Shown: positions 37,710 to 42,773 of the stretch, piece by piece
Position numbering within the stretch: position 1 is the first letter of the stretch
Layout: every line of letters starts with the position of its first letter
Assembly: GCF_037201965.1 (NCBI RefSeq)
Contig: NZ_CP147518.1
Coordinates: forward strand, 1,921,001-1,985,000
Length of the DNA: 64,000 bases
Direction of reading: 5' to 3'
Source of the DNA: Spirosoma sp. SC4-14
Lineage (GTDB): Bacteria > Bacteroidota > Bacteroidia > Cytophagales > Spirosomataceae
Translations under genes and position numbers: made by a program
The notes under the pieces: model-generated
Database searches by the model: none
The model's input: only the letters and a program-made list of their open reading frames with translations
What the model was told of the DNA's origin: nothing

Positions 37710-38214
37710 ATGCCTGGCCATTACGTTCGAATTGAGGGTACTTCTAAAATTAGCCTGGCCAATAATGGCTTAGGCACTGCATCAGAGGGCCCTTGGTAAC
37801 TACCACTGGATTGGTAATGAAATCAGTAGAACTGTTGGACTGTACCGATATAATTCAATTGCGATCGAAGGCCCGTATATCAATAGTACGATCAGGTGGT
37901 TTCTTGAATAAATATAATTTTAAGGTAGATGGCTCAGTAGGTGAAAAAACCTCTATTCGTGCAGGTGCAGCCAATAATAGAGTCGATAATTCTTTTTTTT
38001 AGAATTTGGCAACGTTCCCGGCAACGATTTCATAGAAAAAAGTAAACTTTTGCTTGGTATCGTTACGGAAACTATGGAAGTTAATGAAATCTTATGCACT
38101 GCCGAAAATAGGGGTAAAAACGCTTTTTCTAAGAAAAATTTAAAAACGCAAATCGGTACCGAAACCATCAAATTACCTGCCACCGGATGCGTCTGGTACA
38201 AAAAACTATGCTGA
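37710..38214 (+). pseudogene. Decayed gene of unknown family with four frame changes
   Basis: A protein-like reading can be followed only by changing frame four times, each time by +1: from the ATG at 37710 (MPGHYVRIEGTSK, stop at 37797), then LGNYHWIGNEISRTVG to RWFLE (stop 37909), NKYNFKVDGSVGEKTS to NSFF (stop 38000), LEFGNVPGNDFIEK (stop 38043), and LLLGIVTETMEVNEILC to the TGA at 38212. Two changes fall at homopolymers (T8 at 37992-37999 and A7 at 38035-38041). The segments are more AT-rich than neighbouring genes. The end overlaps the start of the GH28 gene. I do not recognise the family. Sequencing errors at homopolymers are an alternative, though the surrounding genes are intact. Confidence 0.5.
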
Positions 38215-39854
38215 AGAAATATCGATTCCTGAGCCTGATCGGCACTACGCTAACTTCGTTGGCTACACAAGCTCAAACTGCGCCTGTGTATAGCTGGACA
38301 AACCTGCCGAAAATAGCCCAGCCGACTTTTCGGAAAGATACCGTATCGATTCTGACCCACGGCGCCAAACCCGACGGTGTTACATTGAACACAAAAGCAA
38401 TCAACACGGCTATCCTGGTGTGTAGCCAAAAAGGGGGCGGAGTTGTGCTGGTGCCTGCCGGACTATGGATAACCGGGCCAATTGAGTTGAAAAGCAACGT
38501 CAATCTGCACCTGAAAAAGGCCGCTACGTTGCTGTTTACGACCGACAAAAGCCAGTATGCGCTGGTTGAGGGAACGTATGAGGGTAAAAAAGCAGCTCGC
38601 AATCAGTCGCCGATATCGGGTATCAGTCTGGAGAACGTAGCGATAACGGGGCAGGGCATTGTGGATGGTAATGGTGATGTCTGGCGGGCGGTCAATAAAA
38701 ACCAGTTGACCGAACCGCAGTGGAAAGAGAAAGTGGAATCGGGTGGGGTTTTGAAAGAGGATGGCAAAACCTGGTATCCGAGTGAGCAGTTCAAGCGGGC
38801 CAGTACCGAAAACAAAAGCATGTTGTTGACGGCTGGCAAAACGCCACAGGATTTTGCCGATATGAAAGATTTTCTGCGGCCGAACCTGGTAGTGCTGACG
38901 AGTTGCAAAAAGGTTTTGCTAGATGGCGTTACCTTCCAGAATTCACCGGCCTGGTGCCTGCATCCGCTCATGTGCCAGGATTTGACAATTCGCAACGTAA
39001 CGACGAAGAATCCTGAATATGCGCACAACGGTGACGGCATGGATATTGAATCCTGCAAAAACTTCCTGATCGAAGGGTGTACGCTCGATGTTGGCGACGA
39101 TGCGATTTGTATCAAATCGGGCAAAGACGAAGAAGGACGTAAACGGGGGATGCCAACGGAAAACGGCATTATCCGAAACAACAACGTCTATAACGGTCAT
39201 GGTGGTTTTGTGGTCGGCAGCGAAATGAGCGGAGGAGCGCGGAATATTTTCGTGTATAATTGTACGTTCATGGGCACCGATAAAGGTTTGCGGTTTAAGT
39301 CAGTACGGGGTCGGGGTGGGGTAGTCGAGCACATCTACGCGAAAGACATTTACATGAAAGACATTGCCGGAGAAGCCATCTTCTTCGATATGTATTATTT
39401 CGTGAAGTTCGCAACGGATGGGGAGCGGGATATGCGCCCGGTTGTCAATGAAGGCACGCCCATATTCCGGGATATGAAGTTTGAGAATATCGTTTGCAAT
39501 GGCGCTGCCAAGGGCGTATTCATCCGTGGATTACCCGAAATGCCGATCAAGAATATTACCATGGAAAAGCTCGTGTTGCAGGCCGATAAAGGGGTGGAAC
39601 TGATCGATGCCAGCAGGATACAACTCAAGGATGTTCGGCTAATCACCAAAGACACCAAGCCCGTTATTCTGGTCGACAACAGCAACAATCTAACCTTCGA
39701 CGCCATCCAGTACGACCCGAAGGCCAGCCTGTTGTTTTCCATAAACGGTGAACGGAGTCAGGCCATTGAGGTAAAAAACACCGATTTGACAAAAGCCCAG
39801 ACACAAGCTGAATTTGCCAAAGGTGCTCTGGAAAAGAACCTGACGTCGAAGTGA
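38208..39854 (+). CDS. GH28 polygalacturonase-family glycosidase
   Basis: 548 residues from the ATG at 38208, which gives a proper signal peptide (FLSLIGTTLTSLATQAQ); an ATG seven codons earlier is less likely. It has the GH28 right-handed beta-helix with complete active-site motifs: NGDGMD (Asp279), VGDDAI (Asp297, Asp298), NGHGGF (His331) and RFKS (Arg362, Lys364). An insert (residues about 155-225) precedes the core. It hydrolyses galacturonic-acid linkages of pectin. It is followed by the broken acetylesterase-like gene (9 bases later) and a pectinesterase, a pectin-directed patch. Confidence 0.93.
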   Translation: MLKKYRFLSLIGTTLTSLATQAQTAPVYSWTNLPKIAQPTFRKDTVSILTHGAKPDGVTLNTKAINTAILVCSQKGGGVVLVPAGLWITGPIELKSNVNLHLKKAATLLFTTDKSQYALVEGTYEGKKAARNQSPISGISLENVAITGQGIVDGNGDVWRAVNKNQLTEPQWKEKVESGGVLKEDGKTWYPSEQFKRASTENKSMLLTAGKTPQDFADMKDFLRPNLVVLTSCKKVLLDGVTFQNSPAWCLHPLMCQDLTIRNVTTKNPEYAHNGDGMDIESCKNFLIEGCTLDVGDDAICIKSGKDEEGRKRGMPTENGIIRNNNVYNGHGGFVVGSEMSGGARNIFVYNCTFMGTDKGLRFKSVRGRGGVVEHIYAKDIYMKDIAGEAIFFDMYYFVKFATDGERDMRPVVNEGTPIFRDMKFENIVCNGAAKGVFIRGLPEMPIKNITMEKLVLQADKGVELIDASRIQLKDVRLITKDTKPVILVDNSNNLTFDAIQYDPKASLLFSINGERSQAIEVKNTDLTKAQTQAEFAKGALEKNLTSK

Positions 39855-39863
39855 GGAAAGGCT

Positions 39864-40540
39864 ATGAAAACCCTGATCCGATTTTGGGCTTTATGTAGCC
39901 TGCTGGCGCTTTTCGCTTTTGTCTCACCACCCGGTAAGATTACGGTCTATTCGATGAAACCGTCACGGTCGATAACCGGGCACAGAACGGACGTAGCACC
40001 CGAACATTCATCGAAGAAAATCGCTGGCAGTCCGTTGTGGATAATTTGAAAGAAGGCGACTATGTGTTCATTCAGTTTGGGCATAACGATGAAGTCCCGA
40101 CCAAGAAAAGCTACACGACGGAAGCTGATTTTCAGGCCAATCTGATTCGATTCATTACTGAAACGCGGGCGAAGAAAGCCACGCCCGTACTCATTACACC
40201 CGTTGCCCGTCGGAAATTCGACGATGCCGGAAAAATTGAAGGTACCCATCCGGTCTATTCCGAATTGGTACGTAACGTAGCTGCTAATCAGAATACACTC
40301 TTGATTGATTTAGACACCCAAAGCCAGCAGCTTTTACAGCAGTTTGGCGTAGAAAATTCGAAACTTTTATTCCTGCAACTCGCACCGGGCGAACACCCTA
40401 ATTATCCAGCAGGAAAAGAAGATAATACGCATTTCAGCGAATTGGGTGCCCGTCGAATGGCCGAAATTGTGCTGGCGAATATAAAGTCGTTAAAGCTTGA
40501 TCTGGCCGACCGCATTGTAACGCCAGAAACGGCCAAATAG
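39864..40540 (+). pseudogene. Broken rhamnogalacturonan acetylesterase-like SGNH gene
   Basis: Frame 1 begins at the ATG at 39864 with a signal peptide and reaches GKITVYS, where intact relatives continue with the nucleophile block (IGDSTM). Here it jumps straight to the sequence that normally lies some 30 residues later: from 39950 in another frame, FDETVTVDNRAQNGRSTRTF, then VFIQFGHNDE (block III) and DNTHFSELGARRMAEIV (block V, Asp and His) up to 40540. So about 85 bases, including the catalytic serine, are gone and the frame is shifted. The joint lies at TTCGAT (39950-39955), a word expected at both ends of the lost piece. A shorter frame from GTG 40037 could still be translated but has no nucleophile. 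Confidence 0.82.
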
Positions 40541-40672: not shown

Positions 40673-41680
40673 ATGAAACAACTGCTTTTGTTCTTTTGCT
40701 TCGTAGCCGGTGCGCATGCCGCCTGGAGCCAGGCAACGCTATCGCCCACAACTTCTATAACCTTTACCGTTGCTCACGATGGAAGCGGCAACTACAAGAC
40801 CATTCAGGAGGCTGTCAACAGTTTTCGCGATCATATGCAGGTGCGTGTGACGTTGTTCGTGAAAAATGGCATTTATGCCGAAAAACTCGTTATCCCATCC
40901 TGGAAACCCAATATTCATGTTCTTGGCGAGAGCAAGGAAGGAGTCATTATCACGGGCGATGACTATTCGGGGAAAGCGTATCCAGGCGGTAAAGACTGGA
41001 TAGGCAACCGCAAATACAGTACGTATACCTCCTATTCTGTTTTCGTCGATGCGCCCGATATTATTCTGGAAAATCTGACCATACGGAACACCGCCGGGCG
41101 AGTAGGGCAGGCAGTAGCGCTGCATGTCGATGGCGATCGGTTTGTTTGCAAAAACTGCAATCTGCTTGGCAATCAGGATACTCTTTATGCTGCCGCTGAG
41201 GGGAGTCGGCAATATTATGAAAATTGTTATATCGAAGGCACGACCGATTTTATCTTTGGCAAATCGATTTCGGTGTTTCAGTCATGTACTATCAAAAGCC
41301 TTTCTGATTCGTTCATTACCGCTGCCGCTACCCCGTCTTATCAGAAGTATGGTTTTGTTTTCTTCGACTGCAAACTGATTGCCGATGCTGCGGCCAAAAA
41401 AGTGTATCTGGGTCGCCCCTGGCGGCCATATGCCAAAACGATTTTTATTCGGACCACAATGGGCGAACATATTCTGCCTCTAGGTTGGGACAACTGGGAC
41501 AATGCTGACAATGAGAAGACGGTCCTTTACGCCGAATACAAGAGCACAGGGCCCGGTGGGAACCCCTCGAAGCGAGTTGGATGGGCAAAGCAGCTTTCAG
41601 ACAAAGAGGCCAAACCGTATACACTAGCCAATATCTTCTCAGCACAGTCGGTATGGATGCCAAATACCAAGCCTGAATAA
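40673..41680 (+). CDS. CE8 pectinesterase
   Basis: 335 residues with a signal peptide (LLLFFCFVAGAHAAWSQ). It removes methyl esters from pectin, preparing it for the polygalacturonase encoded upstream. All CE8 active-site residues are visible: Gln146 in GQAVALH, Gln168 and Asp169 in GNQDTLY, Asp192 in TTDFIFG, and Arg248 with Trp250 in YLGRPWRPYAKT. YKTIQEAVNS is the usual N-terminal helix turn. Length is normal for bacterial single-domain enzymes. Confidence 0.95.
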   Translation: MKQLLLFFCFVAGAHAAWSQATLSPTTSITFTVAHDGSGNYKTIQEAVNSFRDHMQVRVTLFVKNGIYAEKLVIPSWKPNIHVLGESKEGVIITGDDYSGKAYPGGKDWIGNRKYSTYTSYSVFVDAPDIILENLTIRNTAGRVGQAVALHVDGDRFVCKNCNLLGNQDTLYAAAEGSRQYYENCYIEGTTDFIFGKSISVFQSCTIKSLSDSFITAAATPSYQKYGFVFFDCKLIADAAAKKVYLGRPWRPYAKTIFIRTTMGEHILPLGWDNWDNADNEKTVLYAEYKSTGPGGNPSKRVGWAKQLSDKEAKPYTLANIFSAQSVWMPNTKPE

Positions 41681-41819: not shown

Positions 41820-42773
41820 ATGAGAACTTCCCGTGTTATTCATTTGCTCGTTGTCTCATGGTTGCTGTTCTGGCAGAACAGCAGTGCCCAGCCTTCTACA
41901 GGTACTTACCCGGCCAGGCAGATGTTGTTACGGGATGAAGGGCTTTCCAAATTGAATTATGTAGATCTCGCCCATCCCGAACGAAACTACTACGTATCAG
42001 TTCCGGCTGGTCGGGATCTGCAACTGATTGGGCAGGGCCGGGTGATGCTCGGTACAGGAAAAGGCTACGAAGAGCGGGACATTAAAACCGGAAATAAGGT
42101 CGCTGAATTAACTACATACGACGGAACCATTGCCGCCCGACGCTTACGTAATGGACATGTTATGCTCGTGGGCCTAAACTGGCAGAACAAAAAAGGTATT
42201 GTTCTGGTGGAACTAGATCAGCATCAGGCGGTGCAGCGAACCATTAATTATCCCGACTTCACGTATGTCCGGCTGATTCGGGAAACAGTAGACGGTAACT
42301 TCCTGCTTACGTCCAACGATCGGGTTTTCGAAGGAAAGTCGGATGGCTCTATCGTTTGGCAGGCTCAGCTTACGAAACAGGATAAAGCACAACATGCCTG
42401 GCAGGCGCAACGGCTGGGGAATGGGCAAACACTGGTGAGTGGGGGCTATTCGGCCAATTTTCAGCGATTCGACCGGAAAGGGGCTTTTGCCGATAGTGTC
42501 AGTGGGCCGCCAGTTGTCAATCCGCATTTTTTCGCCGGTTTTCAGATTCTGAAAAATGGCAACTGGGTCGTTGCGAACTGGCAGGGGCACGGTGCTGATC
42601 ATGGAGCGAGCGGTACACAGATACTGGAGTATACACCTGCGGGCAAGCTGGTTTGGTCGTGGAAACAGGACCCGAAGCAACAATCGTCCATTCAGGGCGT
42701 GTTGGTCTTAGATGGACTGGACCTGAACCGCCCGCACGTAGAGGATGCCAAGGGACGGCTGGTGCCAAACTGA
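41820..42773 (+). CDS. Secreted beta-propeller protein of unknown function
   Basis: 317 residues with a signal peptide (LLVVSWLLFWQNSSAQ). The body has repeated propeller-like blades: ARRLRNGHVMLVGLNWQ, ETVDGNFLLTSNDRVFEG, QRLGNGQTLVSGGYSANFQR and ILKNGNWVVANWQGHG, as in PQQ-type or arylsulfotransferase-like propellers. No catalytic histidine typical of arylsulfotransferases could be assigned. It follows the pectin genes and may take part in sugar or aromatic metabolism, but nothing in the sequence proves that. It converges with the AraC gene with only 6 bases between stop codons. Confidence 0.7.
   Translation: MRTSRVIHLLVVSWLLFWQNSSAQPSTGTYPARQMLLRDEGLSKLNYVDLAHPERNYYVSVPAGRDLQLIGQGRVMLGTGKGYEERDIKTGNKVAELTTYDGTIAARRLRNGHVMLVGLNWQNKKGIVLVELDQHQAVQRTINYPDFTYVRLIRETVDGNFLLTSNDRVFEGKSDGSIVWQAQLTKQDKAQHAWQAQRLGNGQTLVSGGYSANFQRFDRKGAFADSVSGPPVVNPHFFAGFQILKNGNWVVANWQGHGADHGASGTQILEYTPAGKLVWSWKQDPKQQSSIQGVLVLDGLDLNRPHVEDAKGRLVPN

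Follow-up and report, generated by a model that had tools for sequence, protein, structure and literature searches.

Among solved structures, the AlphaFold model (mean pLDDT 87.5) of a Spirosoma rhamnogalacturonan acetylesterase, P0001 from S. gilvum, is best matched by Bacillus subtilis YxiM (PDB code: 2o14) and by the rhamnogalacturonan acetylesterase (RGAE) of Aspergillus aculeatus (PDB code: 1deo), the latter a member of carbohydrate esterase family 12. YxiM gives the best match, in both sequence and fold, to the intact relatives of the gene analysed here. Within its 375-residue chain the matched region starts only at residue 158, which leaves YxiM with an additional N-terminal part, and it has the serine block. 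RGAE is matched by the same relatives by sequence (E 1.7e-12) and by model fold (E 7.0e-16), with the serine of their GDST aligned to Ser9 in the fungal enzyme. The literature on RGAE gives its triad as Ser9-His195-Asp192 and its oxyanion hole as Gly42 and Asn74 (PMC2483496), and the block names used below follow the SGNH scheme as set out in a review (PMC9487903). In contrast to these enzymes, the gene described here has no equivalent of Ser9. A literature search returned nothing on rhamnogalacturonan acetylesterase in Spirosoma, and among the matches listed for pectin acetylesterase pseudogenes and deletions there was no title on this gene.

Organization of the disrupted gene

The window, a 64,000-nucleotide stretch of the Spirosoma sp. 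SC4-14 genome, carries at positions 39864-40540 of the forward strand a broken rhamnogalacturonan acetylesterase (SGNH hydrolase) gene that is divided over two frames and ends at its own stop (40538-40540). At a probability of roughly 0.87, we consider that this gene lacks 82 bases through one short and recent deletion, which leaves its halves out of frame, removes the predicted catalytic serine codon and likely leaves no active enzyme.

Frame 1 (39864..40049, forward strand) has 61 codons, comprising 29 native N-terminal residues and 32 out-of-frame residues, followed by a stop. Its N terminus is signal-like as judged by eye and ends ...PPGKITVYS, after which come 31 unrelated residues. The S of GKITVYS is itself a product of the joint; relatives code Leu at this position. 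The joint lies at 39949..39950 (forward strand), where 82 bases of the 18 aligned intact relatives are missing, and has the sequence GGTCTATTCGATGAA, in which TTCGAT occupies 39950-39955. Frame 2 (39950..40540, forward strand) begins FDETVTVDNRAQNGRS at 39950, its start reading FDETVTVDNRAQNGRSTRTF, and runs uninterrupted to the native stop. It keeps the block II oxyanion Gly (NGRS), the block III Asn (GHND) and the block V DxxH (DNTH, within DNTHFS). The block I GDS nucleophile, present in all 18 aligned relatives, is absent from the window gene, having gone with the 82 bases. Frame 2 also contains no signal peptide, and its first ATG does not occur before 40100; a single frame with a signal peptide is thus lacking, the signal-like part belonging to frame 1 and the remainder to frame 2. 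A preliminary description of this DNA had reported GKITVYS joined to an FDE segment in another frame, with the GHND and DNTHFS blocks remaining, and all of these elements are seen in the sequence. Pfam GDSL hydrolase families match the remainder, the match to PF13472 starting at profile position 63, and all matches in an NCBIfam profile search were far below the cut-offs.

Comparison with intact relatives

Orthologues were searched for in 59 genomes and then in 36 genomes of the genus, the strain's own genome being included in each set, and 29 loci were translated. Eighteen intact orthologues were aligned, 17 from the same genus and one from the same order, with 62-90% identity to the query, for which the last 167 residues were used; the two split loci of one genome (G016) and nine distant SGNH loci were left out. 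Every one of the 18 has exactly 82 more bases at the joint, corresponding to 27 residues and one base and including GDST. The earlier proposal, that a rhamnogalacturonan acetylesterase of the SGNH type had lost its serine block through a short deletion of some 30 residues (80-90 bases), is therefore borne out, 82 bases lying within that range and 27 residues coming near that number.

The motif (V/I)Y-L(I/V)-GDS is found in 117 of 120 database proteins (the best 120 of 7979 matches). The three listed proteins without it are P0004, which is the window's own fragment, and P0049 and P0054, both of which start past this point. That P0049 (209 residues, encoded on a 98670-base contig) and P0054 (217 residues) start downstream of GDS may be a matter of start calling, of cut contigs or of further losses of block I. 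Closest among the 120 is P0001, which is 94% identical along all 196 residues of the remainder and shares its blocks, but carries in frame the 27 GDS-bearing residues that the window gene is without. In an alignment of 36 of the 120 listed proteins (A1), the missing segment corresponds to residues L32-F58 of P0001 and holds 16 columns invariant among the 36 homologues, including G34, D35 and S36. Frame 2 lacks a 17th invariant column as well, but this one (Y31) remains encoded by frame 1. The model of P0001 has a strand at residues 28-34 and a helix at 52-56, and on this predicted fold the loss of residues 32-58 removes the strand's end, the loop bearing the serine and the helix.

The preliminary description held that exactly the catalytic serine block had been lost. 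The block is indeed gone, but the precision of the hit is less striking than that wording implies. Placed at random within the gene, an 82-base deletion removes the serine codon at 84 of 681 positions (12%) and at least one serine, oxyanion Gly/Asn or Asp/His codon at 345 of 681 (51%), so the loss of this block is unremarkable.

Sequence at the breakpoints

It had been proposed that intact genes, coding YSIG and FDE, carry TTCGAT at both edges of the segment, and that slipped-strand deletion between the two copies produced the joint. TTCGAT is present at the joint and at the right edge of 7 of the 18 relatives, but the left-edge copy is missing in all 18, since these have a Leu codon (CTG, CTC, CTT or TTA) where TCG for Ser was presumed; all code Y-L-I-G and none Y-S-I-G. 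A CTATTT pair near both edges in one relative (L005) does not help this explanation: its copies lie 78 bases apart, and simple slippage between them would keep the joint in frame and leave four T beyond those of the window. We consider slippage between two TTCGAT copies very unlikely.

Bases common to both exact breakpoints number zero in 12 relatives, one in five and two in one (L005), as judged on relatives and not on the true parent, with DNA identity over the remainder of at most about 82% among the five measured. Repeats of at least six bases occur within 15 bases of the edges in 10 of the 18, at spacings of 70, 74, 78, 99 or 105 bases. In one relative (L003) a TTCGAC pair is found at the GDST and FDE sites, 70 bases apart; a pair of this type was rejected as the cause because it would leave GGCGATTCGA and not GGTCTATTCGA. 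Two steps could also add up to 82, namely a 70-base loss of the TTCGA type with a further 12 bases, or slippage over 78 bases at CTATTT with four T more, but such an origin is not favoured, as it needs two events. From these alignments, the simplest reading is a single short deletion between ends that have little or no sequence in common, the putative ends sharing 0-2 bases in extant relatives.

Neighbouring genes and distribution in the genus

Upstream lies an open gene of the GH28 family (38187..39854, forward strand; polygalacturonase-like, 555 aa; PF00295, E 4.7e-36), and downstream an open pectinesterase gene, that is a pectin methylesterase (40673..41680, forward strand; 335 aa; PF01095, E 6e-72). 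Among eight relative loci that were fetched, the GH28 protein is matched at 84-90% identity over nearly its whole length in six, as two pieces in G016, the seventh, and was not found in the eighth; the pectinesterase adjoins the acetylesterase in six. The order GH28-esterase-pectinesterase is seen in six of the eight, G016 among them, and the esterase is intact in five of those six, so that the window gene is a disrupted orthologue of a gene found intact at the same place. G009 has a different order, and the stretch fetched from G014 yielded the esterase alone. These neighbours, open and in conserved order, agree with the earlier view of an otherwise intact pectin patch. Further along, positions 41820-42773 of the window encode a 317-residue protein with no Pfam or NCBIfam match, found at 82-88% identity in four of the eight loci and in three of six of another set.

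Within the genus the gene is present in 19 of 36 genomes, own included: 17 intact copies, that of the window and that of G016. No orthologue was found in the other 17, three of which are less than 85% complete (G002, G012 and G033). In G001, G014, G018 and G031 the esterase is far from the GH28-pectinesterase pair or on another contig. In G032 the GH28 gene (84%) adjoins the pectinesterase gene (83%; 87% over a shorter stretch), and a search of this genome and stretch with the acetylesterase gave no match. On the G032 locus (L170, 4137-7062), a gap of about 300 bases accompanies this pair without acetylesterase and holds an inverted repeat, as judged by eye. Given G032 and the displaced copies, gain, loss and movement of the esterase around the pair look ordinary.

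In G016 the acetylesterase, matched as two loci, has its frame broken at a different point of the gene. On one locus (L144; G016:C1:7876000-7895000) the acetylesterase and GH28 each match in two pieces. The split may reflect a decaying patch or, since GH28 is divided likewise, assembly noise. The loss in the window is known from one assembly of one strain, and G016 shows that assembly may mimic gene loss. An error of assembly, or a deletion acquired in culture by a strain whose natural gene is whole, would fit a remainder that bears no sign of decay. Against an error, however, a clean loss of 82 bases would not be of the homopolymer type, the two-contig assembly has a completeness score of 100%, and the neighbouring genes are open; we regard this explanation as unlikely.

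No second intact close copy was found in the strain's own genome, which has one close copy only. The nearest other copy is a distant SGNH protein on the second contig (L159; G000:C2:270172-270741), coded in a 299-residue frame with GDSTV and GHND, at 26% identity over 252 columns (44% over a shorter stretch); it is a possible partial stand-in for the lost esterase. A plasmid collection held only distant relatives (four records, 60-80% identity).

Selection and fate of the remainder

All 71 invariant positions covered by the remainder are kept. Substitution rates were analysed with a codon model run as our own script, not a published program, on six genomes and 194 codons: the window and five of the 18 intact orthologues having the same three-gene order (G004, G027, G005, G015 and G022), the other 13 being left out. 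For the acetylesterase, omega is 0.067 on the window branch versus 0.062 elsewhere. One ratio fits equally (2dlnL 0.02), neutrality on the window branch is rejected (2dlnL 11.33), and the profile support interval for that branch extends from about 0.02-0.03 to 0.15-0.20. The corresponding values are 0.050 versus 0.054 for the GH28 gene and 0.085 versus 0.093 for the pectinesterase, with neutrality rejected by 77.07 and 76.65, respectively. The codon model saw no relaxed selection on the window branch, in keeping with a recent loss, and a low omega would also fit a remainder that is still under selection. If omega were 0.06 before the loss and 1 after it, the time since the loss would take up no more than about 15% of the branch.

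With every covered invariant position kept, either the gene was lost recently or selection still acts on the remainder. Under the second possibility the remainder would be kept as a product without catalytic function, such as a binder translated from an internal GTG at 40037. In favour of this, frame 2 has no interruption before the native stop, its covered invariant residues are all in place, and a 176-residue call of the remainder (P0004) is present in the protein collection. Such a product would, however, have neither signal peptide nor early ATG, and by the model it would lack the helix that follows the first strand as well as that strand's end. The same short gene, for which close relatives were inspected, is present in none of the 18 other genus orthologues. 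For this last reason continued selection is thought unlikely, and a retained product of this kind is extremely improbable. A recent loss on the species' own branch is likely.

The missing 82 bases put the halves out of frame and take the predicted serine codon with them, probably through a recent event on this species' branch. Translation of frame 1 would likely yield a short peptide of the secreted type; an internal start may in addition give a cytoplasmic fragment of about 167-176 residues, and neither would have the nucleophile. Pectin deacetylation by this enzyme would be expected to be lost, while the backbone-cleaving and demethylating genes stay. It could further be imagined that the loss of deacetylation was favoured, with community neighbours deacetylating the pectin, the polygalacturonase-type and pectinesterase genes still selected and the frozen remainder dating the switch to the last part of the branch; we hold this to be decidedly unlikely.

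Implications

The case is likely an ordinary and probably recent pseudogene, an instance of ordinary gene loss. It calls for caution in annotation: Pfam scores the remainder as a GDSL hydrolase (39.7 against a cut-off of 32.9 bits) and the 176-residue version sits in a protein collection, and therefore a pathway count based on names would credit the strain with an esterase that is probably absent. In evolutionary terms, it would represent a single recent loss of a gene with a patchy distribution in the genus.
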